Shown here: one piece after another, positions 14,369 through 35,300 of the stretch | Layout of the letters: every line of letters begins with the position of its first letter | How positions within the stretch are numbered: position 1 is the stretch's first letter | Assembly (NCBI GenBank): GCA_024220525.1 | Contig: JAMYWO010000027.1 | Span: 168,038-209,218 of the forward strand | Length of the DNA stretch: 41,181 nt | Direction of reading: 5' to 3' | DNA from: Cochliopodium minus | Taxonomy: Eukaryota; Discosea; Himatismenida; Cochliopodiidae | Notes under the pieces: model-generated | The model's input: the letters and a program-made list of their open reading frames with translations, nothing else | Told to the model about the DNA's origin: nothing | The model's database searches: none | Translations under genes and position numbers: made by a program

Positions 14369-14683
14369 TTATTTGTGTTTTTCAACTAATTTTTTCAAGT
14401 TTTCTTTGTTAGCACCTGAGAATTGATCAAGAAGATTTCCATTTTTAAAGAATTTAAAGGTTGGTACACTTTTTACATCTTGATTATCCTCGATTGAATC
14501 AAGTTCGTCAACATCAACTTTAATAAATTCAACATCAGTGTAAAAATTTGATATGTCTTCAAAGTATGGAGCAATAAGTTTGCAAGGACCACACCATGTT
14601 GCAGAAAAATCAACTACAACCAGTTTATTTTGAGTTTCTTTCAAGTTATTGTATTCTGTTTCTGTATGTGGATGATGTACCAT
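14369..14683 (-). CDS. trx: Thioredoxin
   Basis: Single exon, 104 residues, the standard length of cytosolic thioredoxin. The active site is ATWCGPCK with redox cysteines 31 and 34. The buried Asp25 (VVVDFSA), the cis-Pro in SVPTFKFF (Pro74) and the C-terminal GANKENLKKLV helix are all in place. There is no targeting peptide, so it is likely cytosolic. It reduces protein disulfides and is itself reduced by thioredoxin reductase, as is known for the family. The single-exon structure contrasts with the intron-rich neighbours. Confidence 0.95.
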   Translation of the reverse strand: MVHHPHTETEYNNLKETQNKLVVVDFSATWCGPCKLIAPYFEDISNFYTDVEFIKVDVDELDSIEDNQDVKSVPTFKFFKNGNLLDQFSGANKENLKKLVEKHK

Positions 14684-14965
14684 TTTATTTATCTTTTTGT
14701 TTTGTTGTTTTTGTTTTGATTTGTTTTTGTTTTTTTTTATTTCTTTTCAATTTCAATATCATTTTTTATTTTATATTATTTTATTAGCTGAAATAAAAAT
14801 TAAATTTTTTAATACTTTTTTTCGGGGATTAATCTTTTTGAAAAGAAAAAGCAAACAAAGTTCTTTAAAAACCAAACTAACAACATTTTCGAAAATCTCC
14901 TATATTTAAAAACTCCCGAACTCCCCATTAAAATTAATTTGTTAAAAAAAGTTTTTATTTTGAAA

Positions 14966-15763
14966 TCATTTTTTATCAGGGAACAATCCCTTTATTTTGC
15001 TCAAGGAAATCTGTTTGTATTTTTGGGATCTGATGTTTTCGACATTATATTTTACCAATTTGGTTTCAATATCAGTGAGATAAAAAAGATGATCTTTAGA
15101 TTGGAGATGGAGAGATAGGAACCAGCATATATCCAATGGCATCTCACATCTATCGGATGTTTTTTCGTGATTGTTATGTGATACGAGGATATGATCCTCA
15201 GAATACAAAAAGACCCTTATCGTCCACGATACTCTCGACATGGGCAACAACTGTCCAGATTCTGTTGTGAATGCTAATCTCACATTGGTCACACAAGGTG
15301 CCACTATGGCTTGATTCATGCATTTCAAAATCTTCATCACTTTGCTTTCTTTGGATGCTTTGGAGATGATATCAGCTAATACATCAGGAATTTCATTTGT
15401 GCTCAATTTCTTATCTATCAGAAGATTTTCTATCTCCTCCTTCAATATTTTGGAATCCTCATCTATTTCACACAATTTCAATAAGAAGTTTCCTATATTG
15501 GTTGAGATATTTTCGATATTATTCGTCACATATTTGCTTATTTTCCCTCCCTTCTTTTCTATTTCTTCATCTTCATCTTCCTCTTTTATCTCTTCCCCAT
15601 CTCTGCAATCCACCACCGTGATATGTCTTATCAATCTGTGAAGATCGATCGATATTGGCATATCTTTGCAGTCTCTTTTGAATATATCAAAGGTACTATT
15701 GATAGAAGATTGCCAATCTATCACATTGGTTGATTTGATTGATATTGTTTTAGATTTGAACAA
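14966..15763 (-). CDS. Protein of unknown function
   Basis: The open frame covers 265 residues and ends at 14966. It has no ATG near its 5' end. A splice acceptor (AAAATAG) just upstream, at about 15774-15780 on the minus strand, suggests that a short first exon lies further up. Visible parts: an N-terminal beta/helix mix (WQSSINSTFDIFKRDC), a very acidic loop (EEIKEEDEDEEIEKK), a helical middle (NNIENISTNIGNFLLKLCEID and following) and a C-terminal beta-rich half (TNVRLAFTTESGQLL, VSWTIRVFLYSED, CWFLSLHLQSKDH). No signal peptide or membrane segment. I do not recognise the family. The domain style (regular strands, paired hydrophobics) indicates a folded cytosolic protein. Confidence 0.6.
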   Translation of the reverse strand: MFKSKTISIKSTNVIDWQSSINSTFDIFKRDCKDMPISIDLHRLIRHITVVDCRDGEEIKEEDEDEEIEKKGGKISKYVTNNIENISTNIGNFLLKLCEIDEDSKILKEEIENLLIDKKLSTNEIPDVLADIISKASKESKVMKILKCMNQAIVAPCVTNVRLAFTTESGQLLPMSRVSWTIRVFLYSEDHILVSHNNHEKTSDRCEMPLDICWFLSLHLQSKDHLFYLTDIETKLVKYNVENIRSQKYKQISLSKIKGLFPDKK

Positions 15764-16166
15764 TTTTTTGTACCTATTTTGAGTGAAATTTTATAGGATA
15801 AAAAAATAGATTTATTTAATAATCAAAATGATTTTATGATTTTGGGTTGAATCTATTATATACTATCTTGTCGAATTTAAAGTGTAATAAGGCAAATAAA
15901 TTTATTTTTATTTAAATTCAAATTCATTTTACACGAGATATCCCACCAAAAATAGAATCAAAAAAGATGGAAAATCCAGGGCTATATATGATGGGGAAAT
16001 TGGTTGAATGGTATTCTCCATTTGTTTCCAATTTTTTAATTTTATTTTATTTTACAGAAAAAAGAACAAAAGAAAAAAAAAAAATAGGAAACTTTAAAGA
16101 AAAGAGAGATTTACATTATGAAAAGAATACAATCACAATTATCAAGTAATTGAAATAAATAAAAAT
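15764..16166. promoter_or_regulatory. Divergent intergenic region, unknown gene and ELP5
   Basis: About 400 bases between genes that point away from each other. It probably holds the missing first exon of the minus-strand unknown gene and both promoters. A plus-strand ATG at 15967 opens a 60-codon Lys-rich frame that I regard as chance. No recognised motif. Confidence 0.35.
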
Positions 16167-18210: not shown

Positions 18211-21200
18211 ATGGAAGATATTCATGAAATTGATATGGATGAGAGAAATAGCAGTAATTTGAGAAATGAAATACCACATAAAACAGTATAAAACTTTTAA
18301 ATCAACAAAATACTAAAAAATTTAATTTATATTTTCCCCATAACCAGAATTATGTATTGATTCTCGTTAGATGGATTTATCCATTGGTATTATTATTTGC
18401 TGGATATTCAACATCAAATGTATTTTCAATGATATACGTTTTGGGATTCATATCAATAGTATTATGGTAAAAGAAAGAGATTGGAAACAATATATCAAAG
18501 AAAATATTCAAAATATAAACCAAAATTTTGAAAATTAAGGTCCCCAAACAATATATCGGAAAGCAGGAGTAAAATTTTTATTTCACTGATTAATAAATTC
18601 AAAATCAATTTAAATTCAACTCTATTGACCCACAACAATTTTTTTTTTTTAGAAACATGGTGTGAAGTACACATGATCTTCATGTTTGTGATCTCGACAA
18701 TAGGATTTTTAGGGCAAATAGTATTTCAAACATTATTCATCATGTACAGGTATCCACTATTCACCCAAGAGGATGCTAATGAAGTTCTCTCAATGCTGGG
18801 TTTTATTAAGTAATTTTTTTTTTATATTAAAAATACTTTTAAAGTAATTATTTATGATAAACTATTTAAAAGAACAAGTGACAGCTTTAAAGATGTTGCA
18901 CCTATTTTGTCTCAAGTAATTACTTTCGTTTTCATGTTTGTGATGTTGATTTTGGTAGCTAAGAAAGCCATTTTTTCTAAAAATCCTGCGAGTAATTGTA
19001 TTTTATTTTTAAAATCTCTTTTCATTTAACCATTCATTTTTTTTTTGTCTTTTTTTTTTAAAAGTCAGATATGAAAAAAAGATTAGTACATTTCTCACAT
19101 TTTTCACCTACTTCAACATGTTTTTGATAACAATCTTTTCTCCAAGCGTTTATTCCACTATATTTTTTCTTGTGTTACTGTTCACGTTGGGTATCTACAC
19201 ATTTAATTATTCTTGGAAACTATTCCTCAGAAGGACTTACAAAATTTGGTTGTTACTGACAGTTACACAGTTGTTATTGATTGCAGCCTTTCAAATCACC
19301 ACAGTTAGAAATGTCCTTCTTCCATATGCAAATATATTTGGTCTTCGTTACTATGTGAGCTATTCCAATGACAGCATTGACATGCACAAGGACTGGAATT
19401 TTTTTCTTCAATTTCTCTTTATTATTTTTTTCTTTTTTACATTGTCATACGTTTTCGAGCTCATTTCTTTGGAACAGTAAAAATTTTTTTTTTCTAAATC
19501 AAATTTTTTTCAAAACTACTTTTAATTTTATTAAAGAGAATCAAAAGAATCAAAGAAAAAAGATGAAGAGTTTATCATTGAAGAGAAAGGAGGTCAAGAT
19601 GCCAACAGTGAATTTGTACTGGAAGAAGATAGCAGCATCTCCATAAAAAAAAACAAGCACCCTGGTGTTGCATATTATTGTGGAAAATATGGTTGGACAT
19701 TGGCTGTACCCCTCTTGTTCGTCTGCTCTGTGATTAGTAATAACGTGTTGAGCATAGTTATCATTATTGTTCTTTTCATAGGAATATGGATCCCTAGAAG
19801 AATTTTCTCCTCCTTGCCTGTTCGTGTTGTGTTTTACCCTTTTGTTATTTTTGCAATGTTTTTTGATTATCTATTTCAAAACAGTTTCTTTCCAGAAGTA
19901 AAAAAAAACCATTTTTTTTTGTTATTTTTATTTATTTGTTTAAAAATAAATTTAATTTTGTAGATTGACATTTTTAATACGCTTGGATTTGCAAAAATCA
20001 GATTTGATCTTTTCCCTTTTGTAATTTCGATCAACGTCTTGTCTCTTTTAGTTCTCGGAGTATACTGGCACTTCTACGTCAGAGTTAACCACAAGCTGGA
20101 CGAATTGGTGTCTTGGCTCAAAATACACAAGTTCTTTGTAAACGATTTCGGAGAAAGTTGGATTAATGGTGATCTATTTTGTAAAGTGCTTCACAAAACA
20201 CAACCCACAAAGTTCTCTTCTCTTTCATCTGAAAAGATAGAAAACTTCACAGCTGAAGAGAAACTCGAGAAATGTTTTAGAATGATCGAAGAACTCTACG
20301 AAATAGAATCTCCTTTCACAGCAGAACATTTCATCAACAATCATAGTAACTTAGAAAAAGAATTCAAGGCTTATTTGAACAAGATTCACAAGACTTTTAA
20401 GACGAATATCTTCACTCTTGGTTTGAAAGCATTTTTAGAACAAACATACAAGTTGTCTATTATCTTTCTTTATGTTACTTCTTTGAGAGAACAAGGGACA
20501 GGTAAAAAAATAACAAAAATTTAATTAAATTTATTTTTTATTTTTTTATTTTTTAAAATCAAAGCAATCAACACTGGGTTTTTATTTTTCTTTGTTGTTT
20601 TCCTTATTTCCCAAAAGATTGCTTTGAAATTTTGGATTTTTCTTGTTGGTTATTGTGAAATTGTGATTATGATGCTTCTCATTTGGCAGTTTGGTTGGTT
20701 CAAAGAAAACGAAGTGACAAAGATAATCGGTTTGAAAGACTTTGGAAGTCTCTTTAATCTTTACTACGGGCTTTACATTTATGTTATCACACTTATTTTA
20801 ACCACGATACAACTTTACATCAATAGATACTTGAAAATAGGTCTTTTATCTAAAGAAAAAGCGAACAAAGAAAAGATATTTGGACATGTTTCTTTAAACA
20901 GAGTGGATTTTCCTCTGGGGTTAAAATGGTTTTTAGTTTACTTCTACCAATTGTTTCTTAACAATGTTCTCTACATCAATTACATCATAATCCTTTGTGT
21001 GGCAATGTTCTCTTCACAGACTCTTATGAATGCAGTTTATCTTCTTTTTGCTTTCGTTTGTATTGGAATTTCTTTTTCTACCAATTCTTCGTTGAGATAC
21101 ATCAAAAAGTTTTGGAATCTCTTGGTCTCTTTCTCTTTGCTTTTCTTGGTAATGAAATACATCTATCAATTCGAACAACTCGAAAAAGCAATCAAATTTC

Positions 21201-24200
21201 CCGAAAACAAATGGATCACTCTGGAAGTGATCGGAATTGTACCTACCGAAGGGTTTATTCAATTCTTCTTGTACTTGCTTCCTGATGCTGTCATATTGCT
21301 TTTTGCTACTTATCAATCATACATCTTTGTAGAATACAAAGAGTTTAACATCAAAGATGTCAACAATAAAACACTCGAAATTCATGAATTCACAAGAGAG
21401 AATTATCCAAAGTTCATTTTATTTGTGAGGTTTCTCCAGAGGTTTTTGATCATCCACTCGAGCAATTTCATCTACTTGAATCTCGCTTTTGCTGTTTTGG
21501 CTGATACAAGCGTAGTCAACATCATTATCATTTTGATTATGTTTCTCTCCTTTCATCTTACAAGAGGGACATCCAACACTCCCATTGGAGTTTTGATATT
21601 AATCTACTCTTACTTTTTCCTTCTCGCTTCTTATTTCTTTAACCTCAAAACTGTTCAATTAATCTTTGAAAGTGAATTGGATCGAAACAGGTTGAGTTGG
21701 GTTGGCGTGTATGCGGGAACATATTGGAAGCAGGCTCTACCTTACTCTATTCTTCTCATGCTTTTGTTAATTCAAAGGTATTCTTTGAGAGTACAGAGAT
21801 TGTATTACAAAAAGGGTAAAGTGAACCTCTTCAAATATTCTTTGTTAATGATGCACAAAAAGACTGTCACAACAAGCTTTGCTTTCAACAACGCGAAGAG
21901 AGTATTGTCCAATTTGAGCAACTATTATGGATTCAATTTCTTTGCTTTTTCAATGTTGATAGCTGCATACATCCACAACAATCTTTATTCCATCGTTTAT
22001 GTAGTAGCAATAGGATTTTACTTGTTTGGGCTCACAGAACCTATGAGAAAAAGATTCAGCAAATCTCCTAAACTAATTTTTTTATTGCTTCTTCTTCAAG
22101 GTCTTTTTCTTTTCAAATATATCCTCCTTCTTGGACCTATTCCGTTTACTCTTTTTCATTTTTATCATTGGAATTTATGGAAAACGAGCGTCCAATTCTT
22201 CTTTTCCGTTTGCTGTTTGAAATGTAACTCTCTTCCATTTGGATCTTGCATAAAATACGTTAACTGGTACTTCATCTCTGATTTGATCTCAATGATGTTT
22301 TTGGCATCTTATCTCAACAGTTTGAGAGTAGAAAAGCAATTAGAGAAGGAGAAAATCTCCCAATCCATCTCAAAGTTGTACAAAAAAGAAAAGGAAGATT
22401 TGATGGAAGACAACATCAGCGAATCCACAATGAGTTTGATTGTTACCGAAAATTCAGACAGTGAACAAAAGATATTCAGTGGTTACGAAACTGATGCTCT
22501 CATAGGAGAAGAAGATCTAAGCAATATTGAATACTCTATCTATCAATTCTACAAATCTAGTTTCAATTTTACACTCATTTTTATTTTCTTTGCTGGTGCA
22601 TTGAGTGTAAAGGGATTTTTCTTTATTATTTATTTTTTTTTATTAATTTTAAAAGGTTGATTTCCTCTCATATTTCTACGTTTTATTTTCTTTGTACTTC
22701 ATTTTGAGGGGAAGAGCTTCTTATGAGATGGAAGGAGATTCACCAGGGATCTTTTGGTTGTTGATCAGAATCATAAACTATTCGATTCTTCTTTTGAAGA
22801 TCATCTTCCAAATTCCATGGATCGAAATCAACAATCAAACATGGCCTCAACTGTTTGGATTAAGCAAGTTTACAGGTTTGAGCGCATTCAAGAATACAGG
22901 GATCATTTTCGATCTTATCATTTTGTTGCTTCTCTCTTTCCAGAAATCCATTTTCGAGAGTGATATTTACAAAAGAGTGAACCTCAGAGCAAAAGATAGT
23001 GAAAGCAAACTTTTCAAAAGTTCTCATCACATTGACAAGTTGAAGAAGAAATACATTCATGAATGGACTTCCCTTCTTCAAATGCAGCTTAGAAGACAAA
23101 GAAGAATTGTTCATTTGGAGAAAGAGAGGTTGGATGCTTGGTTGGATCCCAACAAAGAACTTTTCATTCCTGTTTGGGTCAAGAAAGACATCAACTCTTA
23201 TCTCGAACAGCTCAAAGACAGACAAAACAGACAAAAGGAGTTCAGAGAAATGGAAAATATGATTGAAAGCAATCAAGATCTTGATAGTGAGAAATTTGTT
23301 GAAACTTACAATGAGGGAACAATCATCAACAACTTTGAAATCAATTTGGATCAAAATGATGATGTGAAAGTTAAAGAGGATATCGTTGGTGATAGCAATG
23401 CTGATTTCTCTGAAGAAGATAAATTGAGCAATAATCAAAGTCAAATCGATGACAATAAACCCAAGAAAGTGCAGATCACAGTAACTCCAAAAGTGATAAA
23501 GAAGAATCAAGATACATCGGTTGATGATGATGATGAAAACGATAATTCGGAGATATCATCTGAAGAAATCCTCTTTGTGAAGAATCAGAACAAAGAAAAC
23601 GAAAAGAAAAACGTTAAATTCTTGCTTGATGACGACAGTTCCGAAAACTTTGACAAGCTGAAAACAGATTCTGAAGGTGAAAGCAGCGACAAGGAGAAGA
23701 AAGATAAGGATGTGGAGTTCGGTGAGTCAGAAAGAGAGAGCGAAACGACCGATTCCGACAACAAATTCACCAAAGAAAAGATAAAGAGTAAGATCTCCAA
23801 GTTCTTCAAAGCTCAAATCGATAAGTTCATCCTATGGTGCCACGATGACAATCTAAAAATAAAAGAAATAACTCACGATGTCATTGAAACTGAAGACGAG
23901 GGAGAAAAGTTCAAGTACCAAACACCAAAGTCTCCTCCTCCTGAAGGCAGCAGATTCTACCAATTTCTCGCTGGCCTTTTCAAGCTGATCTCCAACAACA
24001 CTGCAATTCTTGTCTATTTCATGATGATCATTAATCACACCTTTAACGCCAACTTGCTTTCTCTTGTCTTTGTTGTTTCTTTGTTTGGATATGCTCTTCT
24101 GTTATATCCGGAACCGAAAAAAGGATATTGGGTTTTTATGATGGTTCAAATTTTTTATTTTTACAATTTTTTTTTTTTTAATATATTTTTATTATATTAT

Positions 24201-25863
24201 TTTTTATTGTTTTATTTTTTAATAAATTATTTTTGGGGTTTTTAATTTTTACAATTTTCTGGTTTTTTATTTTTAAAATTATTTTATTTTCATTATTTTT
24301 ATTTTTTTTTAATTTTATTTTTTAATTATTTTTATTATTTTTCGAACAAGACATACACTGTATTGGTGATTTGGGCAAAAGTATTTTACCAGATTTCAAT
24401 CTTCTGTTGTTGCTACGTAGGAACATCATCAATTTGGGGAGCAGGAAACAAATGTTTCAAAGAACAGGCATGCCAACTCAGTTCACACAACCCGCTCTCC
24501 TACCCCTACATCATAGGAATCTACAAGTTTTTCACCATCATCTTGATCTCGCTCATCCCAGATCTCTTCGTCTTCATCAGTTTGGTGATCCACAGATCCA
24601 CATTGAGAAGAAGAGGAATATGGCAAGAAGGGTTGAAGTTTTTCACCGAAATAAAGTTGGAGGAAGCAAAGATGGAAAGAAGGAGAACTGCGATCACTTC
24701 CATCAACAGAAAGGATCGTCTCCAAGTTCTCCCTCAACAACCTTTTGCTGAAAACTTGGGACCCAGATTATTGGACGATGAAAAAGAAGTGAAGAAAGAG
24801 ACTCCGCCTGGCTACTTTGGTTTGTTTTTTGGCAAGTTTGTCAGACATCATGACAGGTTGAGAGAAAGATATTTGCCTTTGGAGGATTACTACGTCACAA
24901 GTTTAGTTTCTGAGTTCTTGTGCTTCTTTTTGTTGGTTTTTTTCCCATCTGATTTTACAGGAGTCAACAGTAAGAAAAAAAAATATTTTTTTTTTTTTAA
25001 TATTAAAAAAATTCAAAAAAATTAAAAAAAAAAAAAAAATTAAAAAAAAATTAAAAAATTAAAAAAAATTAAAAAAAATTAAAAATAAAATTTAAAAAAA
25101 ATTAAAAAAAATTAAAAAAAAAATTAAAAAATTTAAAAAAATAAAAAAACAATTTAAAAAACTCAATCTAAAAAATTGAAAATTTTATTTTGAATAGGTG
25201 GAGATGGGGCTTCTTTGATCGCGGAAAACAGAATTCCTATTCTCTTCTTACTTGCCATCTTCTCCCAGTTTCTCTTGATCATGATGGACAGAGTGATTTG
25301 GATCAGAAAGTGGATCACCTTCAAAATCATTCTCCAATATGCCCTTGTATTCATCTATCACTTTTGGTTGTTTTTTTGGTAAATTATTTTTTATTTTTAT
25401 ATTTATTTTTATATTTATTTTTTTTAATTTTTAATTATTTTTAATTATTTTTTATTATTATTTATTTTTTGTTTTTTTTTATTTTCTTTTATTTTTTTAC
25501 AGGCTCCCATTTAAGAATGGAACACCATTTGTAAGAAGCCCTGCTTTGGTCATTTTCTATCTTTTGAAATGTTGGTACTTTTATTGGAACTCAAAGCAGA
25601 TAAGTGTTGGTAAAATAAATTTTTAAATTTTTTACATTCTTAAAATTTATTTGAAATTAATTTTTTTTTATTATTTTATTTTTTTTTTGAATTATTTTTA
25701 TTTTTGAAATTATTTTTTATTTTTTAATTTTTAATTTTTTTGTGAATTTATTTTTTGTAGGATTTCCTTTGATTTCTACTAATTCACTCACTAAACAATA
25801 TGGATTATTCAACTACGCTGTCTTTCAAATCTACAGAGCAATTCCATTTGTCTACGAATTAAG
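18211..25863 (+). CDS. PIEZO: Piezo mechanosensitive channel with inserted CH domain; pore part absent
   Basis: Fourteen exons keep one frame: 18211-18285, 18348-18466, 18540-18568, 18653-18809, 18873-18991, 19065-19476, 19537-19897, 19964-20501, 20565-22606, 22656-24143, 24351-24969, 25198-25378, 25503-25609, 25761-25863; about 2116 residues. There are dozens of membrane segments in blade-like groups, a basic helical segment (LLQMQLRRQRRIVHLEKERL) and a long acidic Ser-rich cytosolic linker (about residues 1485-1690). Family markers: PEPKKGYW, MMDRVIWIRK and GFPLISTNSLTKQYG with IPFVYELR, the last matching GYPTR...LTKKY...VPFLVELR of animal Piezo1. A calponin-homology domain occupies about residues 466-568. 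The next expected motif (DW...T.TSL..W...ED) and the whole pore (anchor, cap, inner helix) are missing. The frame ends in an intron with a microsatellite and an N. Role: non-selective cation channel opened by membrane tension. Intron 10 uses a GTTCAA donor. Confidence 0.88.
20087..20395 (+). other. Calponin-homology domain encoded inside Piezo exon 8
   Basis: Residues about 466-568 of the channel. The order of elements is LDELVSWLK (helix A), VNDFGESWINGDLFCKVLHK (the signature F..SW.dG..fc.ll segment), P in TQPTKF, FTAEEKLEKCFRMIEELYEI (the n...af..ae.lgI helix) and EKEFKAYLNKIHKTF (last helix). It lies between transmembrane segments (FVISINVLSLLVLGVYW before, FLEQTYKLSIIFLYVTSL after), within one uninterrupted exon, so it cannot be a splicing artefact. 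CH domains bind actin or microtubule partners, singly or in pairs. Confidence 0.8.
25016..25145. repeat. Low-complexity (AATTAAAAAAA)n in a Piezo intron
   Basis: Irregular tandem copies of ATTAAAAAA-type units over about 130 bases in the intron between Piezo exons 11 and 12. No coding potential. Confidence 0.7.
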
Positions 25864-25890: not shown

Positions 25891-25967
25891 TTTTTTATTT
25901 TTATTTTTATTTTTATTTTTATTTTTATTTTTATTTTTATTTTTATTTTTTATTTTTATTTTTATTN
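25891..25967. repeat. (TTTTTA)n microsatellite ending in an ambiguous base
   Basis: About twelve near-perfect TTTTTA units, ended by the only N in the window at 25967. It begins about 25 bases after Piezo exon 14. Sequence right of the N does not continue the Piezo frame with any pore motif. A short open stretch (NHKYYFEDRFKEVLEFIKFE) ends in a stop near 26040 and could be the last exon of something. The site looks like an assembly join through a repeat. Confidence 0.75.
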
Positions 25968-28029: not shown

Positions 28030-29085
28030 TTAATTTACAATATCCTCATTTCTTTGATCAATGCCATTCCTACACAAAGGACATAACTTTGACTGTTCCA
28101 ACCACTTGGAGATACATTCCTTGTGGTACTTGTCCAAACAAGGCAAAATGACAATGGGTTCCTTCTCCTCAAATTCCTCAATACAAATGGAGCAGCTCTT
28201 CTGTTCGATGGAAGAGGTGAAGAAACCCAAGGTGAGGCTTTCGATTTGGTTCTGTGAAGCTCCGCGAGATACGTTGTTTCGATCCAAAGTAGATAAAACT
28301 TCGTAATCATCTGTGTTGAAATTGTTGTTTTGATTGAAATGATTTTGAAATCTATGTAAGAGAGGATGTGGGATATAATTAGTGTAATCTTCATAACTAT
28401 CTGAATTTTCATTTTCATTTTCATTATCGATATCATCGTCGTTGAATGAGAGCATTCCCAAGGAATTTAGCAGAAGGAGCATTCTTGTTCTTTGATTTAT
28501 TTCTTCTCTATCAAAATTCTCTTCTTGATGGTGAGGAGGTTCATTATGGTAGTGAACAAAGTTGTTATTTTCATGGTGATGATGATTTTGGTTGTTGTTT
28601 TGGTAATTAATGGTGTTTCTTCTAAAATGGTTGATGTAATTCCTTTGATTATCTGATTGGTAATCTCTATCTCGATTATTTTCTTCATTATCTCTTCTTA
28701 TCCTTGGATATCTTGGATATCCTATTCTATTAATCACATTTAGATTATTCGAATCAGAACTGTTGTCATTATTTCTTTCTCTATAATTATTTCTCCTTTC
28801 ATTATTGTTATTGTTTCTATTATTTCTGTTAAAATTGTAAACATTTCTTTCATTATTAGATTCATTTTGCCTGTGATTATTGTTCCTTTGATGATTGTAA
28901 TTATTTCTGTTTAATCTATTATTATTTGCATTATGATCACCATATCTGGTGCTATTTCTCTCATTATTACTTGTATCCATGTTATTGGGAATATCATGAG
29001 AAAAATTACAATTCATTCCTCTATTACATTTGTTATTAAGGTAGAATCTGCACAATGTCTTGCTTTTTCGATTATTATAATTCAT
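28030..29085 (-). CDS. CCCH zinc finger plus RING-type E3 ligase-like protein
   Basis: Single exon, 351 residues. A CCCH finger lies at residues 12-30 (C-x7-C-x5-C-x3-H, CRFYLNNKCNRGMNCNFSH). Residues 35-190 are an Asn/Arg-rich low-complexity region with His runs. A Glu/Asp/Asn stretch follows, and a RING finger is at 298-338 (CSIC...LPCLDKYHKECISKWL...CPLC). In RING-H2 proteins the pattern is C-x-H-x2-H-x2-C; here the first His is Asp318. CCCH fingers usually bind RNA and RINGs recruit E2 enzymes. So this may be an RNA-associated ubiquitin ligase, if the altered RING is active. The Asn/Arg-rich linker is likely disordered. It is tail-to-tail with ATP10 (93 nt) and head-to-head with the ankyrin gene. 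Confidence 0.85.
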   Translation of the reverse strand: MNYNNRKSKTLCRFYLNNKCNRGMNCNFSHDIPNNMDTSNNERNSTRYGDHNANNNRLNRNNYNHQRNNNHRQNESNNERNVYNFNRNNRNNNNNERRNNYRERNNDNSSDSNNLNVINRIGYPRYPRIRRDNEENNRDRDYQSDNQRNYINHFRRNTINYQNNNQNHHHHENNNFVHYHNEPPHHQEENFDREEINQRTRMLLLLNSLGMLSFNDDDIDNENENENSDSYEDYTNYIPHPLLHRFQNHFNQNNNFNTDDYEVLSTLDRNNVSRGASQNQIESLTLGFFTSSIEQKSCSICIEEFEEKEPIVILPCLDKYHKECISKWLEQSKLCPLCRNGIDQRNEDIVN

Positions 29086-29378
29086 TATTTTTTATTTTTT
29101 ATTTTTTTAAATTATTTTGTGAAAAAAACAATTTGGTTTCTGTAAAATGAAAAATTAAATTTTAATTAAGTTAATCCTTGAAGTACACTTTGCAGTAGAT
29201 TGAATGAAAGTTTCCAAAAATCCTTTGTTGCAAAAAAAACTAAAAGAAATAATTCTTATTTTTGGAAATATTTGTTTTTAAATTGATTTTGGAAAGTAAA
29301 TCATTCAATTTCTTGATTTGTTAATTATTTTTGATCAAAAACATTTTAAAAAAAAATAAAAAATTGAATAAAAACGAA
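29086..29378. promoter_or_regulatory. Bidirectional promoter region, RING gene and ankyrin gene
   Basis: About 290 A/T-rich bases between two divergent start codons. The ankyrin ATG follows an A-rich leader. No recognised motif. Confidence 0.4.
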
Positions 29379-32300
29379 ATGGAAGAAGATAATGAAGAAA
29401 TAATTAACAAATTTTTTAATTCAATCAAAAATGATGGGATAGATGTGATCTCTCCTTTGATTGAAGATTTATTTCAAATAGGATTGAGTATAGATATAAG
29501 GTAAATTATTTTCCTTTCAAAATTATTCAAAACCAATTCAAAAACAATTAAATATTAGAGATTCAGAAGGTAAGATTTACTTTCAAAAAAAATAATTTTT
29601 TATTTATTTTCCAATCAAAATCCAACATAGATGAACCTAATTTCAATAGAACAGGTAATCAATATCATGAATCATATAAATCATAAACTAATTAATTTAC
29701 ATTATGATTAAATATAAAGCACTTATGCATGAATGCAAGAAAGAAGAGCCAAATATTGATATAATAAAGTTTTTGATAAAGAAAGGTAATAATAAATCCA
29801 ATTAAAATTAATAAAGATTTGACTCTTTAATCCATTAAAATAGGGGCAAACATCAACTTAAAAGATCAAGAAGATAAATCTCCACTTTTATTGATTGCAC
29901 AAGGAGAAAACCCAAACACAGAGATTATTGAGTACTTGATAAAGCAAGGTGCCAATGTAAACTCGAAAGGTAAATTAATTAATTTTTATTTCGCTCAAAT
30001 TTTTTTTAATCTTTTTTTTTTTTTTCTTAACACAGACGAAAATGGAAGAATTATTCTTTATACCTTATGTGGGTTGGAGAATATCAATGTAGAAGTAATT
30101 AATATAATTATTGAATCATCAGAAGACATGACGGACGGACTAAGAGGAGCTTGTGACAGTTTCTCCCCCAATACTGAAATAATAAATCTTTTGATAGAAA
30201 AAGGAGCAAATGTGAACCAAAAGGATGAATCTGGTGAATTTTTTTTGAATTTTTTTTTAGATTATTTTAATTAAACTTATCTTTTAAAAAGGTTACCCAT
30301 TCTACAATAATACACCATTCCACACTGCAAGTGGGAATTATTGCATGACTTTTGAAGTCTTGGAACTTTTAATAGGCATTTTTTTCCATTTTTTTTTTTT
30401 AATTAAAAAAAATTTAATACTATTTAATATAAAGAAAAGAAAGCAGACTTTAACATAAAAAATCAAAATGGAGAAACTCCTTTTTGGAAACTGTGTTGCA
30501 ATAAATTCGCTCCCATCGAAACATTTGAGTACTTTATACATAAAAAAGCTCAAGTGAACCACTCTGACATCGTGGGGAACACTTGTCTTCACAATGCTAT
30601 TAAAAATGGAGTTAAACAAGATGTAATATCATATTTACTTGAACAAGGAGCCAGTAAAAAAAATATTCAATTCAATTTTTTCATTTTTTCATTTTTTAAT
30701 TTTTAACTTTAGATGCATTATCAAATGGTAGAAAGAATTTTTTTTTTTAATAATATTATAAAATCCTTTTTAGATTCGGATGGTTACACCCCGATTTATT
30801 ATGCAGGGAAATATGAAGAAGATGCTTATGACCTTATCAACCTTTTAATTACTAAAAAAGCAGACATTTCTGAAGCATTGCTTGGTGCTTTTTCTGTTGA
30901 TAATTTTAATGAAGTTTTAATTGAAGTAAAAAAAAATTTTTAATTAAACTATTTTTGTTAATTGTTTATGTTTTTAAAGATATTAATTGAAGATGGCAAA
31001 TTTTTTTTAAAGACAAATTAAATTTTCATTTTTTTTTTAATTTAATTTTTATTTATTAGGAGCAGAAGTAAACAATAAAACAAAAGAAGATTATGGTGAA
31101 TGTTTTTTTTAAATATGAAAAAATAAAATTTTTTAAAATATTTTTAGAAGTACCTGGGCGTGCACCTCTACATTTTATTTGTGCTAGTTCAAATTCAAAT
31201 ATCAATTTGTTGAAAATAATATTTGAAAAGTCAGTGGAAAACATCAAAACAACTGACATGAAAAATTCTCTTCATATTGCTTGTGAGAATCAATTTCCTA
31301 ATGAAGATGTGATAAAATATTTACTAGAGAAAGGGGTTAGTGTTAATGAAAAGGACAACAACGATCATAGTGCTTTTTATTATGCTTGTACACAAATTTT
31401 TTAATTTAAATTTTTTTATATTAATATTTATTAAATATTTGTAAAATTTATTTCAAAAAGGTAACAACGAGGGAATCACAAGCGATTTGATTGGCTTGAT
31501 GATAGAAAATGGAGTTGAATTTATTGATGAAGTCTTGATAGGTGCTTGCAAAAGCTCAACTCCCAACATAGAAATAATAAAAGCGCTGATCAACAAAGGT
31601 AAAAAAAAAAAAACAAATTTTTTGAATTTTTTAATTAAACTTATTTTTATTAAAGGAGCAAATCCAAACATTCTTGGTATTCTTGTTTTATTACCCAAAC
31701 AAAAATTTTTTTTTTTAAAAAGAAACTTATTATTTCATTTATCAAAAAAGATGCATACCCAAACAGAAGAAACGCACTTCACTACCTTTGTGAAAATTCT
31801 AATAATTCGATGGAATTACTGGAAATAATAATAGACAAAATAGAAGACATAAATGCACAAGACAGACAAAGTAACTCTGCTTTAATGTATGCATGCATCA
31901 ACGAATATTCAAACATTGATATCATTGAATTACTCATCTCAAAGGGTGCAAAGGACTTTAATGGAGCACTTAGAGGATGCGTCATTAAAGAAAATACAAA
32001 TTTTGATTTGATTGATTGGTTGATTAAAAAGGGAGCAAGTGTAAATGAAAGGAACAAGGATGGAGAGCTTGCTATTGGTTTGGCTTGTAAACAGAAGTGC
32101 AGTGTTGATTTGATCAAATTATTGATCGAGAATAGTGCTTCTCCTAACTCCAAAGGGATGAGAGATAGACAACCTCTACATATTCTTTCTCATGAACAAC
32201 AAGAAAAAAAGTAATATTTTTCAATAATATCATTTCAATTTTTTTTAATTTTTGTTACATGAAAAGTGTTGAAGTGTGTAAGAATTTTTTAAAGTTAAAA

Positions 32301-35300
32301 TTATAATTTCATAATAATTTTTTAAAAAAAGTGAAATATCTGGTTGAAAATGGAGCAGATTTAAATGGATTGGATGGAGAAAAAAAGTAATAACAAAAAA
32401 AAAAAATTATTAAATTAACAAATTATCAATGAAATTAAAATACAGTACTCCTTTGATGCTTGCTTGTGAATATTCCCTTAACTATGAATTTACAAAATAT
32501 ATGATCGAAAAAGGAGCTTCTTTGAATTTAAGGAATGAAGATAAACACTCTTCTTTTTACTTTATTCTTAAAAGCAATGATCGGATGTCTGATTTAGTAA
32601 ATTTGTGTATTCAGAAAGGAGCCACTGACTTTGATGGGGCAATCATTGGTCTTTGTAGAGCTTATCAATCAGAAGTAGAGGAATTTAAATTATTGATTGA
32701 AAAAAAAGCAAATGTGAACACAAGAGATATTGATGGTAAAATGATAAAACAGCAAATTTTTTTATTTTTTTATTTTTTATTTTTTTATTTTTATGATTTA
32801 ATTTATTTTTTTTTAGGAAAAACACCTCTTCATCACATATGTGAACATTCTTGTTCAATCGAAATACTGAATTACTTGTTGGAACAAAAAGCAGATTTGA
32901 ACTCGTATGATAACGAAGCAAACACACCGTACTATTATTATTGTAAATCCCAAGTTTTGGATCAAGAAAGATACGATTTGTTTGTAAAACATGGGCTTGA
33001 AGAATTCGAACAAGGTTTGTATGGAGCTTGCAAAAATGATTCTTTGGGGTTAGAAATGTTGAAATTGGTAATCAAAAATGTGAATTCAAACAAACCAAGT
33101 GAAAGCACAGACGGTTCAAAGTGTAAAAAAAAAAAAAAAATTTTTTATTAATTTAATTAATTTAATTAATCAAATTCTTTTTGGAAAAAATAAGTTCCTA
33201 TTTCTTTTCTATGCGAAAACAATACTGTTGATTTCGATTTGTTAAACCTTTTGATAGATAGTGGATCTAATATTAATGTAATTGATAAAAATGGAAGAAC
33301 ACCTCTTCATTACCTGTGTAAAAGTTATGTACCAAAGCTGGAAGTTGTGAAAGTAATATTTATTTATTTTTTCAAAATTTTTTATTTTTTATATTAATTT
33401 AATTTTTTTTTTAAAAAGTTATTGGTAGAAAAAAAAGCAGATCTTAACATTAGAGATGAAGAAGAAAAAACAGCATTCAACTATCTATACAAAAATAGTA
33501 ACCAAAGTGCAATTGAAATATCACAATATCTTATAGAAAAGGGACACATGAATGATTGGGACCATTCATTGAGGTGTGCTTGTTCGAACGACTCTCTTTC
33601 TTATGAAATCATCAAAATGCTGGTAGAAAAGGGTGCAAATCCCAATATAAAAGGTAGAGAAGAGTATGGAATTGGTGGAAGATCTTCATTACATCAACTT
33701 TGTGGAAATGGAGGACTAAATTCTGAAATTTTAGTAAAAAAAAAAAAAAAAAAAATTTTTTTTTTTTGAAAATTTTTATTTCGTTTAATTTTTATTTTCT
33801 TTTTATTTCGGAATCAGGAATTTCTTCTTACTAACAAAGCTGACCCAAATTTCAAAGATACAAATGGGATAACACCTTTTCATTCATATCTATCTGGAGA
33901 AAACATCTCCAGTGAATATACAGAGATCCTCCTCAAAAACAAAGCAGATCCCAACTTGATAGGTAAAAAAAAAAAAAACGTTCAAATTTATTTCTTAAAA
34001 AAAAACAAAATTTTTATTTATTTTTCAAAGATAACAATCAACAAAATTCCCTTTATTTTGCAAGTAAAAATAGAAAAGCATTACTCGAAGTAATTGAGTT
34101 GTTGGTACAATATGGTTGAAAAAAAAAAATTTTATTAATTTCTATTAAATTTTCATTTTTTAATAAATTTTATTTTAAAAGGTGCAAATGATTTTACAAT
34201 TGGACTTCATGGAGTTTGTAGTAGTGAAAAACCAAACATCGAAATCGCTAAATATTTTTTGGAGAAAAAGGCAGACCCTTGCAAAATGATAAAGACCAAA
34301 TATAGGTCATACAACTCTTTGATGAGGGCTTGTGAAATGGATCAAAGCAAAGATCTCGTTCAACTTTTACTTTCTACTGACAAAAACATAACTAAAGCAA
34401 AAAACAAATCTGGTCAAACAGCAATTGTATTTTTTTTTATAATTATTTTTAATTTTTTATTTTTTATTTTTATATTTTTTCGTAATAAATTTATTTTTAA
34501 AAGCACTTGGCTTGTGATTCACATTACATTGATCCTGAAGTAACACTTCTTTTGTCCAAAAAATATGAGCCAAACCAACTCGATTCTCATAAAAAAACTG
34601 CTTTACATTATTTATCAGATTGCAAATACTGCATTCCATTAAAGTATTTTGAAATCTTCTTGGAACTTAAATATGATAATGATCTCTTGGGTAAAAAAAT
34701 AAAAAAAAAATTTATTTATGTTTTTCTTTATTTAATTAATTTCTTTTAAACTATAGATGAAAACGGTAATAATTTTTTTTTTCATTTAAAAATTTAATGT
34801 TAATTTTTATTTTGCAATACAGGAGATTCTCCCTTCAAAATTGCTTGCAAAAATTTTTATCTGTAAAAAAACATTCTTCATCTATTTTTTTGTTTTCATC
34901 ACTATTTTTATTTTCTGTTTTGTTTTAAATAGTGAGTTGGAGTGTAAGAATTTTTTATCAACAATTAATTTTTAATTACAATTTTAACAAAAAAAAATAA
35001 AAAAATAGATCCATTTTTGTTTTTATCGAAGGGTGTTAAAAACTTTGACCAAGGACTTTTGGGATCTGTTCAGACAATGAGAAATAAATTAGAACTCATT
35101 AAAGTAAATAAATTTTTAAAAGAGAATTAATTAAAAAAAAAAAACTTATTTAAACAATCATAAATTTTATTAAATATAATCGGAAATAAACTGATTTAAT
35201 TTAATTTAATTTAATTTAATTTGAATAATTTTTTTTTAAAAAAAAAAAAGATTTTAATTGAAAAAGGAGCAAACATAAACTCAAGAGACAAGCGAAGAAA

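Follow-up and report, generated by a model that had tools for sequence, protein, structure and literature searches.

The open question of whether, and how, cytoskeletal force acts on Piezo channels in addition to membrane force is raised by a Piezo gene of the protist Cochliopodium minus, through a calponin-homology (CH) domain read in one of its blade exons. We analyzed the 41,181-nucleotide stretch of DNA in which this domain had been predicted (hereafter, the window; coordinates refer to it unless stated otherwise), asking whether the domain belongs to the channel, which loop of the blade it occupies, and what its type suggests about its possible partners.

A CH domain in an exon of a Piezo gene

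The original prediction placed a CH domain at 20087..20395, and profile searches bear this out: the translated segment matches the Pfam CH family (PF00307) with 29.4 bits (E 9.7e-7), above the curated cut-off of 26, and the translation of 19964-20500 matches it with 28.4 bits. The domain extends further than predicted, to approximately 20407 rather than 20395, giving a length of approximately 107 residues. A scan of the whole genome with PF00307 yielded 90 CH matches, many of them in clusters of 2 and some in a single cluster of 4, with only one CH place in the whole window, scoring 28.9 bits. With a CH2 profile built on 18 second CH domains taken from this genome, the segment scores 39.6 bits, compared to 13.3 bits for the best shuffled segment (2,000 shuffles, 1,989 reported); a chance CH match was rejected, since the shuffled segments score far lower. 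CH chains also top the lists in a fold search, but the models, predicted from single sequences only, are of low confidence (mean pLDDT of 57.5 and 60.5).

The window contains only the 5' part of the Piezo gene, though most of the channel is encoded there. The features of the gene are as follows:

18211..18285, + strand: likely exon 1, with the start codon at 18211 and 25 residues; read by eye, with its borders checked and no match confirming it
18348..18466, + strand: likely exon 2 (TM1-TM2); open hydrophobic frame read by eye, unconfirmed
18653..18809, + strand: Piezo exon 3; splice model
18879..18991, + strand: Piezo exon 4; splice model
19065..19476, + strand: Piezo exon 5, second helical unit, TM5-TM8; splice model and unit scores
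19537..19897, + strand: Piezo exon 6, cytosolic linker and TM9-TM11; splice model
19964..20501, + strand: Piezo exon 7, with TM12, the CH domain and the weakly hydrophobic TM13, residues ~348-526; frame, splicing, alignment, codon usage and hydropathy
20087..20407, + strand: CH domain, CH2-like, residues 389-495 of the spliced fragment; profile matches
20565..22606, + strand: Piezo exon 8, completing unit d and followed by units e to g and part of unit h; PF23188 below cut-off (17.3 bits)
22656..24143, + strand: Piezo exon 9, with the rest of unit h, a beam-like and charged region and the start of unit i; PF23188 62.7 bits in 22653-24245
24351..24969, + strand: Piezo exon 10, with the rest of unit i and the start of the last unit; PF23188 37.7 bits in 24246-25025
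25198..25378, + strand: Piezo exon 11, a portion of the final helical unit preceding the anchor; splice model and phmmer
25503..25609, + strand: Piezo exon 12; splice model and phmmer
25761..25863, + strand: Piezo exon 13, ending where the anchor motif starts; splice model and phmmer
25967, no strand: one N within a T-rich repeat, marking an assembly join; the gene continues at G000:C260:46382-44824 (minus strand)

Predicted splicing of the 11 exons at 18653-25863 (+ strand), with GT-AG introns and matching phases, yields 2,039 stop-free residues; exons 2 and 3 miss a GT-AG join by one base. Counting both unconfirmed 5' exons, the exon carrying the CH domain, predicted as exon 8, is exon 7. 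The domain lies within a single open frame of 186 codons (19964-20524), and exon 7 has canonical splice sites with phases fitting both neighbors. The exon is 538 bases long (1 mod 3), so that skipping it would break the frame, and 0 of 43 pairs of internal donor-like (GT[AG]A) and acceptor-like sites removes the whole CH segment in frame. The GC content of the CH segment is 35%, compared to 4-15% in 10 introns, and the codon usage of exon 7 scores 0.368 bits per codon in frame (training mean, 0.348) versus −0.36 and −0.47 for the two alternative forward frames and at most 0.13 on the reverse strand; in both GC content and codon usage, exon 7 resembles the other exons. Intron retention and a frame artefact were rejected based on the splice phases and these coding statistics.

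By sequence, the gene is a Piezo channel. Residues 1649-2039 match solved Piezo channels (phmmer, E 2.4e-30), and PF23188 is above cut-off in exons 9 and 10, but not in exon 8. In the best phmmer alignment, no other significant Piezo stretch was found in the rest of the blade; since the significance is confined to the C-terminal part, exon 7 is tied to Piezo through splicing and the multiple alignment. The Piezo part of the window stops at the start of the anchor, upstream of the N at 25967, and a PIG-H gene comes after the N. The continuation was recovered on the minus strand of contig C260 by a genome search with the C-terminus of a database Piezo (P0001), and a single N, again inside a T-rich repeat, directly precedes it there (G000:C260:46470; L014 position 71). 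The later pore-region and cap exons lie on C260, beyond the join. Together with five C260 exons, the window exons encode 2,313 stop-free residues; the joined protein matches PF24874 (THU9-anchor) with 249.9 bits over positions 2-238 of 238 and PF12166 with 63.6 bits over positions 12-169 of 298, the latter corresponding to the cap, which is outside the window. The cap profile PF12166 had no match when the genome was searched exon by exon, and two queries for the inner pore helix and C-terminal tail found nothing; small exons or assembly breaks could hide this part. The halves in the window and on C260 complement each other, and no second Piezo copy was seen in the genome. The paired Ns inside the gene look like a scaffolding misjoin, a feature absent from the original prediction.

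Several observations concern the surroundings of the gene. Each of the two Ns cuts the Piezo gene, the 5' part adjoining the PIG-H gene on C27 and the 3' part adjoining C260 exons that appear ABC-transporter-like by eye. The next same-strand open stretches after the cap exons (L013 8325-7450; C260, minus strand) look RCC1-like (E 3.7e-4, below cut-off), with no N between them and the cap exons, and represent either another misjoin or the next gene. Elsewhere in the window, the minus strand carries a protein with a GlfB C-terminal-like domain (14966-15790; PF24929, E 4.4e-12), an adjoining thioredoxin gene (14369-14746), and an Asn-rich protein with an N-terminal CCCH zinc finger and a C-terminal RING-H2 finger (28030-29091), and the plus strand an exon run that is ankyrin-repeat-like by eye (approximately 29800-34500), of which the one exon scanned (31654-32214) matches Ank families.

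The fusion could be artefactual: an intron left unspliced, a chimera created within the exon during assembly, a fortuitous match, or the assignment to this gene of exons 1-7 from another one. The join described above lies 5.5 kb downstream in the same gene, hence misjoins do occur in this assembly. However, the N at 25967 is the only one in the window, frame and codon usage are continuous, the GC content exceeds that of the introns, both splice phases fit, helical unit d is split across exons 7 and 8, and shuffled segments fall far short of the observed score; we consider an artefact highly improbable. Collectively, the analysis confirms, at the level of sequence, a CH domain built into an exon of a genuine Piezo channel gene, as predicted, and makes the combination of Piezo and CH domain, as read from the DNA, near certain.

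Position of the CH domain in the blade and relation to the PIEZO2 loop

By hydropathy, with the unconfirmed exon 2 counted, the CH domain comes after twelve helices, between units c and d, that is, in the TM12-TM13 loop after the third four-helix unit by helix count. TM12 is clear, with a mean hydropathy of 2.21 in a 19-residue window (cut-off for a membrane helix, 1.6). TM13 (residues ~505-522) is weak, with a 19-residue mean of 1.02, and is counted as a membrane helix on the basis of its alignment with the opening helix of the next unit in other Piezos; downstream of the domain, the sequence first turns strongly hydrophobic at the exon 7/8 border. The prediction that one exon also encodes both flanking membrane segments thus stands for the blade sequence on both sides of the domain and for TM12, but depends on the alignment for TM13. 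In the established Piezo fold, loops between helical units face the cytosol; given the even helix count, which is even without exon 2 too, the CH loop is probably cytosolic.

In PIEZO2, the TM12-TM13 loop, IDR5, is reported to be needed for activation by cytoskeleton-transmitted force, and its deletion to leave channel mobility unchanged (PMC8924262). A 2026 study reports that PIEZO2 is freed in the membrane by IDR5 deletion and by knockdown of filamin-B (FLNB), which it identifies as the tether of PIEZO2 to actin, and that IDR5 transplanted into PIEZO1 conferred no tethering (PMC13149025). The match of the CH loop to this cytoskeletal loop by helix count was not part of the original prediction.

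Whether the two loops are homologous depends on how the blade units correspond. Ten four-helix units were drawn by hydropathy and alignment, and nine of them matched, some weakly, in order to animal units with the HMMER composition correction off, a setting under which unit scores of this protein and its homologs run high for hydrophobic sequence. Among 15 of 21 homologs that were aligned, 12, including an oomycete and Pelomyxa, have a linker at the CH position, short or low-complexity by eye, and the 3 animal ones are gapped. The 12 non-animal Piezos appear to have ten helical units versus nine in animals; the extra blade unit of these Piezos, that of C. minus included, seems akin to animal unit 4 (the stretches at issue in the C. 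minus protein are spliced residues 279-388 and 505-612).

In the multiple alignment, unit d lies opposite the animal third unit, so that the CH loop would fall at TM8-TM9 of the animal channels, and single-sequence assignment of the animal third unit leans weakly the same way (5.0 bits for c and 5.6 for d in the C. minus protein; 2.3 and 11.2 in Pelomyxa). An exact equivalence of the CH loop and the IDR5 loop is weakened by these two results. By contrast, profile-profile comparison favors unit c over unit d as the counterpart of the animal third unit (52.9 versus 43.3). Five of 7 reduced sets also favor c, one of them by just 27.8 versus 26.7, and the 2 favoring d are the set without P0001, P0020, and P0021 (22.0 versus 37.1) and that of the C. 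minus protein, P0011, and P0016 alone (14.9 versus 26.1). Taken per protein, the best total favors c in 8 of 13 and d in 5 of 13, the C. minus protein being nearly tied (39.5 versus 40.1 for c and d, respectively) and P0001 the clearest (90.7 versus 61.0; its unit c scores 39.5 bits against animal unit 3). Unit d leans to animal unit 4 in all 8 sets, and in 11 of 13 proteins its score with animal unit 4 exceeds that with unit 3. The favored assignment is that unit c corresponds to the animal third unit and unit d is the extra, fourth-unit-like one; under it, the CH loop, like IDR5, would come after the animal third unit. The CH loop is thus probably homologous to the IDR5 loop of PIEZO2.

The architecture among known Piezos

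The claim that no Piezo of this architecture had been described holds for the sequences and the literature searched. None of the 21 homologs, retrieved by a search that covers relatives sharing exact words, has PF00307 among its precomputed domains, and rescanning 17 of them (all but P0003, P0004, P0017, and P0018) at E up to 0.1 matched 15 families, CH not among them; the same insertion, which the prediction had proposed to look for in related Piezos, was accordingly found in neither set. Queried by word search, the CH region plus flanking sequence gave 77 candidates, none with an E value of 10 or below, and viral contigs scanned with the CH exon gave 3 pattern matches and no relative. The homolog searches found no second species with a Piezo-CH fusion, and no Piezo with a CH domain was found among the titles and abstract openings listed from mostly open-access literature, the mention of CH in the text consulted from PMC8584042 being generic.

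The closest systems include non-animal Piezos such as that of Pelomyxa schiedti (P0011), which in the alignment share the order of ten helical units and the loop position; their loop, however, is a linker, with no CH match in the 17 rescanned homologs. The Piezo of the oomycete Aphanomyces stellatus (P0007) likewise carries an extra folded domain, which is fibronectin type III (fn3; precomputed PF00041) rather than CH. Fn3 matches 2 of the 17 rescanned Piezos, and single Piezos match PH and SH3 weakly. Extra folded domains in Piezos are therefore already known, and the CH domain would be a new addition. Outside the family, NompC with its ankyrin-repeat tether is also a mechanosensitive channel with a cytosolic tether domain of its own, but is reported to belong to another channel family and to use another domain and a microtubule link (PMC9108448).

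CH2-like type and possible docking to the cytoskeleton

The type of the domain bears on what it could bind. In the type comparison, its best CH2 score is 27.6 bits versus 5.3 for the best CH1, and the CH2 profile outscores the CH1 profile by 39.6 to 3.2 bits; a CH1-like domain was rejected on these gaps. With a single CH place in the window and this low CH1 score, the locus does not encode a tandem CH1-CH2 actin-binding domain. Sequence and fold matches include CH domains of MICAL and smoothelin or smoothelin-like proteins, and no EB-named chain is among the 25 PDB sequence matches to the CH segment (E up to 1). To our knowledge, neither MICAL nor smoothelin-like 1, each with a CH2-like domain standing alone, is a multi-pass ion channel. 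These two lone domains are typed as CH2 in the review PMC7240100, which also puts the binding of isolated utrophin CH2 to F-actin at approximately 1,000-fold below that of CH1 or of the two together, and describes the ability of single CH domains to bind actin as disputed.

The original prediction held that the domain gives the blade a direct actin or microtubule tether, that is, that it binds a filament with useful affinity on its own. The domain is present, the effect of three copies in a trimer could be additive, binding to actin in cells is reported for some single CH domains, and the CH domain of EB1 cosediments with tubulin (PMC7240100). However, the domain is CH2-like rather than CH1-like, and no EB-named chain figures among its 25 PDB sequence matches. 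Its type, together with the low affinity of isolated utrophin CH2, makes a strong direct actin tether doubtful; this part of the prediction found no support, and we regard a direct tether to either kind of filament as unlikely. A more serious alternative, though we would put it below an even chance, is that the domain is real and expressed and has no cytoskeletal partner, serving instead as a folded spacer on which blade stiffness or blade spacing depends, or as a protein-protein module in signaling. In favor of this alternative, the domain is CH2-like and lone, and lone CH domains are reported to have diverse partners (PMC7240100); moreover, in 12 Piezos this loop forms a linker whose length varies, so that the position tolerates insertions. 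Against it, CH domains are mostly at work in cytoskeletal proteins. The TM12-TM13 loop of PIEZO2 is, in addition, reported as a cytoskeletal contact (PMC13149025).

We consider it about evenly balanced whether this Piezo, with its lone CH2-like domain after the third four-helix unit, docks its blade to the cortical cytoskeleton. We infer that the module may bind the cytoskeleton. Each of the three blades would carry one CH module, which would dock the blade either with the help of a partner protein or by adding up weak contacts with actin across the trimer; movement of the cortex would then pull the blade, on top of membrane tension. The weak binding of isolated CH2 and the findings on IDR5 and filamin-B favor a partner or multivalency over a strong direct tether. 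Weighing against docking are the lone, CH2-like type of the domain, the failure of IDR5 to tether PIEZO1, the unchanged mobility reported in the earlier study on IDR5 deletion, and the finding of the fusion in one species only among those searched. PIEZO2 is reported to achieve such coupling via its TM12-TM13 loop and filamin-B, and the C. minus channel would, by helix count, use the corresponding cytosolic blade loop (PMC13149025, PMC8924262). Unlike the loop of PIEZO2, which is reported as disordered and dependent on a separate protein, the loop of the C. minus channel would itself hold the module, covalently, as a CH2-like domain. Filamin-B, for its part, is reported to reach actin via an N-terminal domain of two CH domains (PMC7730838).

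The finding indicates that Piezo blade loops accept folded domains. More tentatively, and with the chances against it, the blade loop by which mammalian PIEZO2 reaches actin, via the CH-containing filamin, may be the one in which a protist lineage has installed a CH module; the C. minus channel would then embody, naturally and covalently, the tether between PIEZO2 and filamin, and this loop would be a recurrent, ancient site of force-from-filament input. The force selectivity of PIEZO2 has been linked, in the 2026 study, to this loop working with filamin-B (PMC13149025). If the coupling module is indeed borne by the channel, the tether idea would become testable by deleting or transplanting approximately 107 residues, leaving the general cytoskeletal protein intact.
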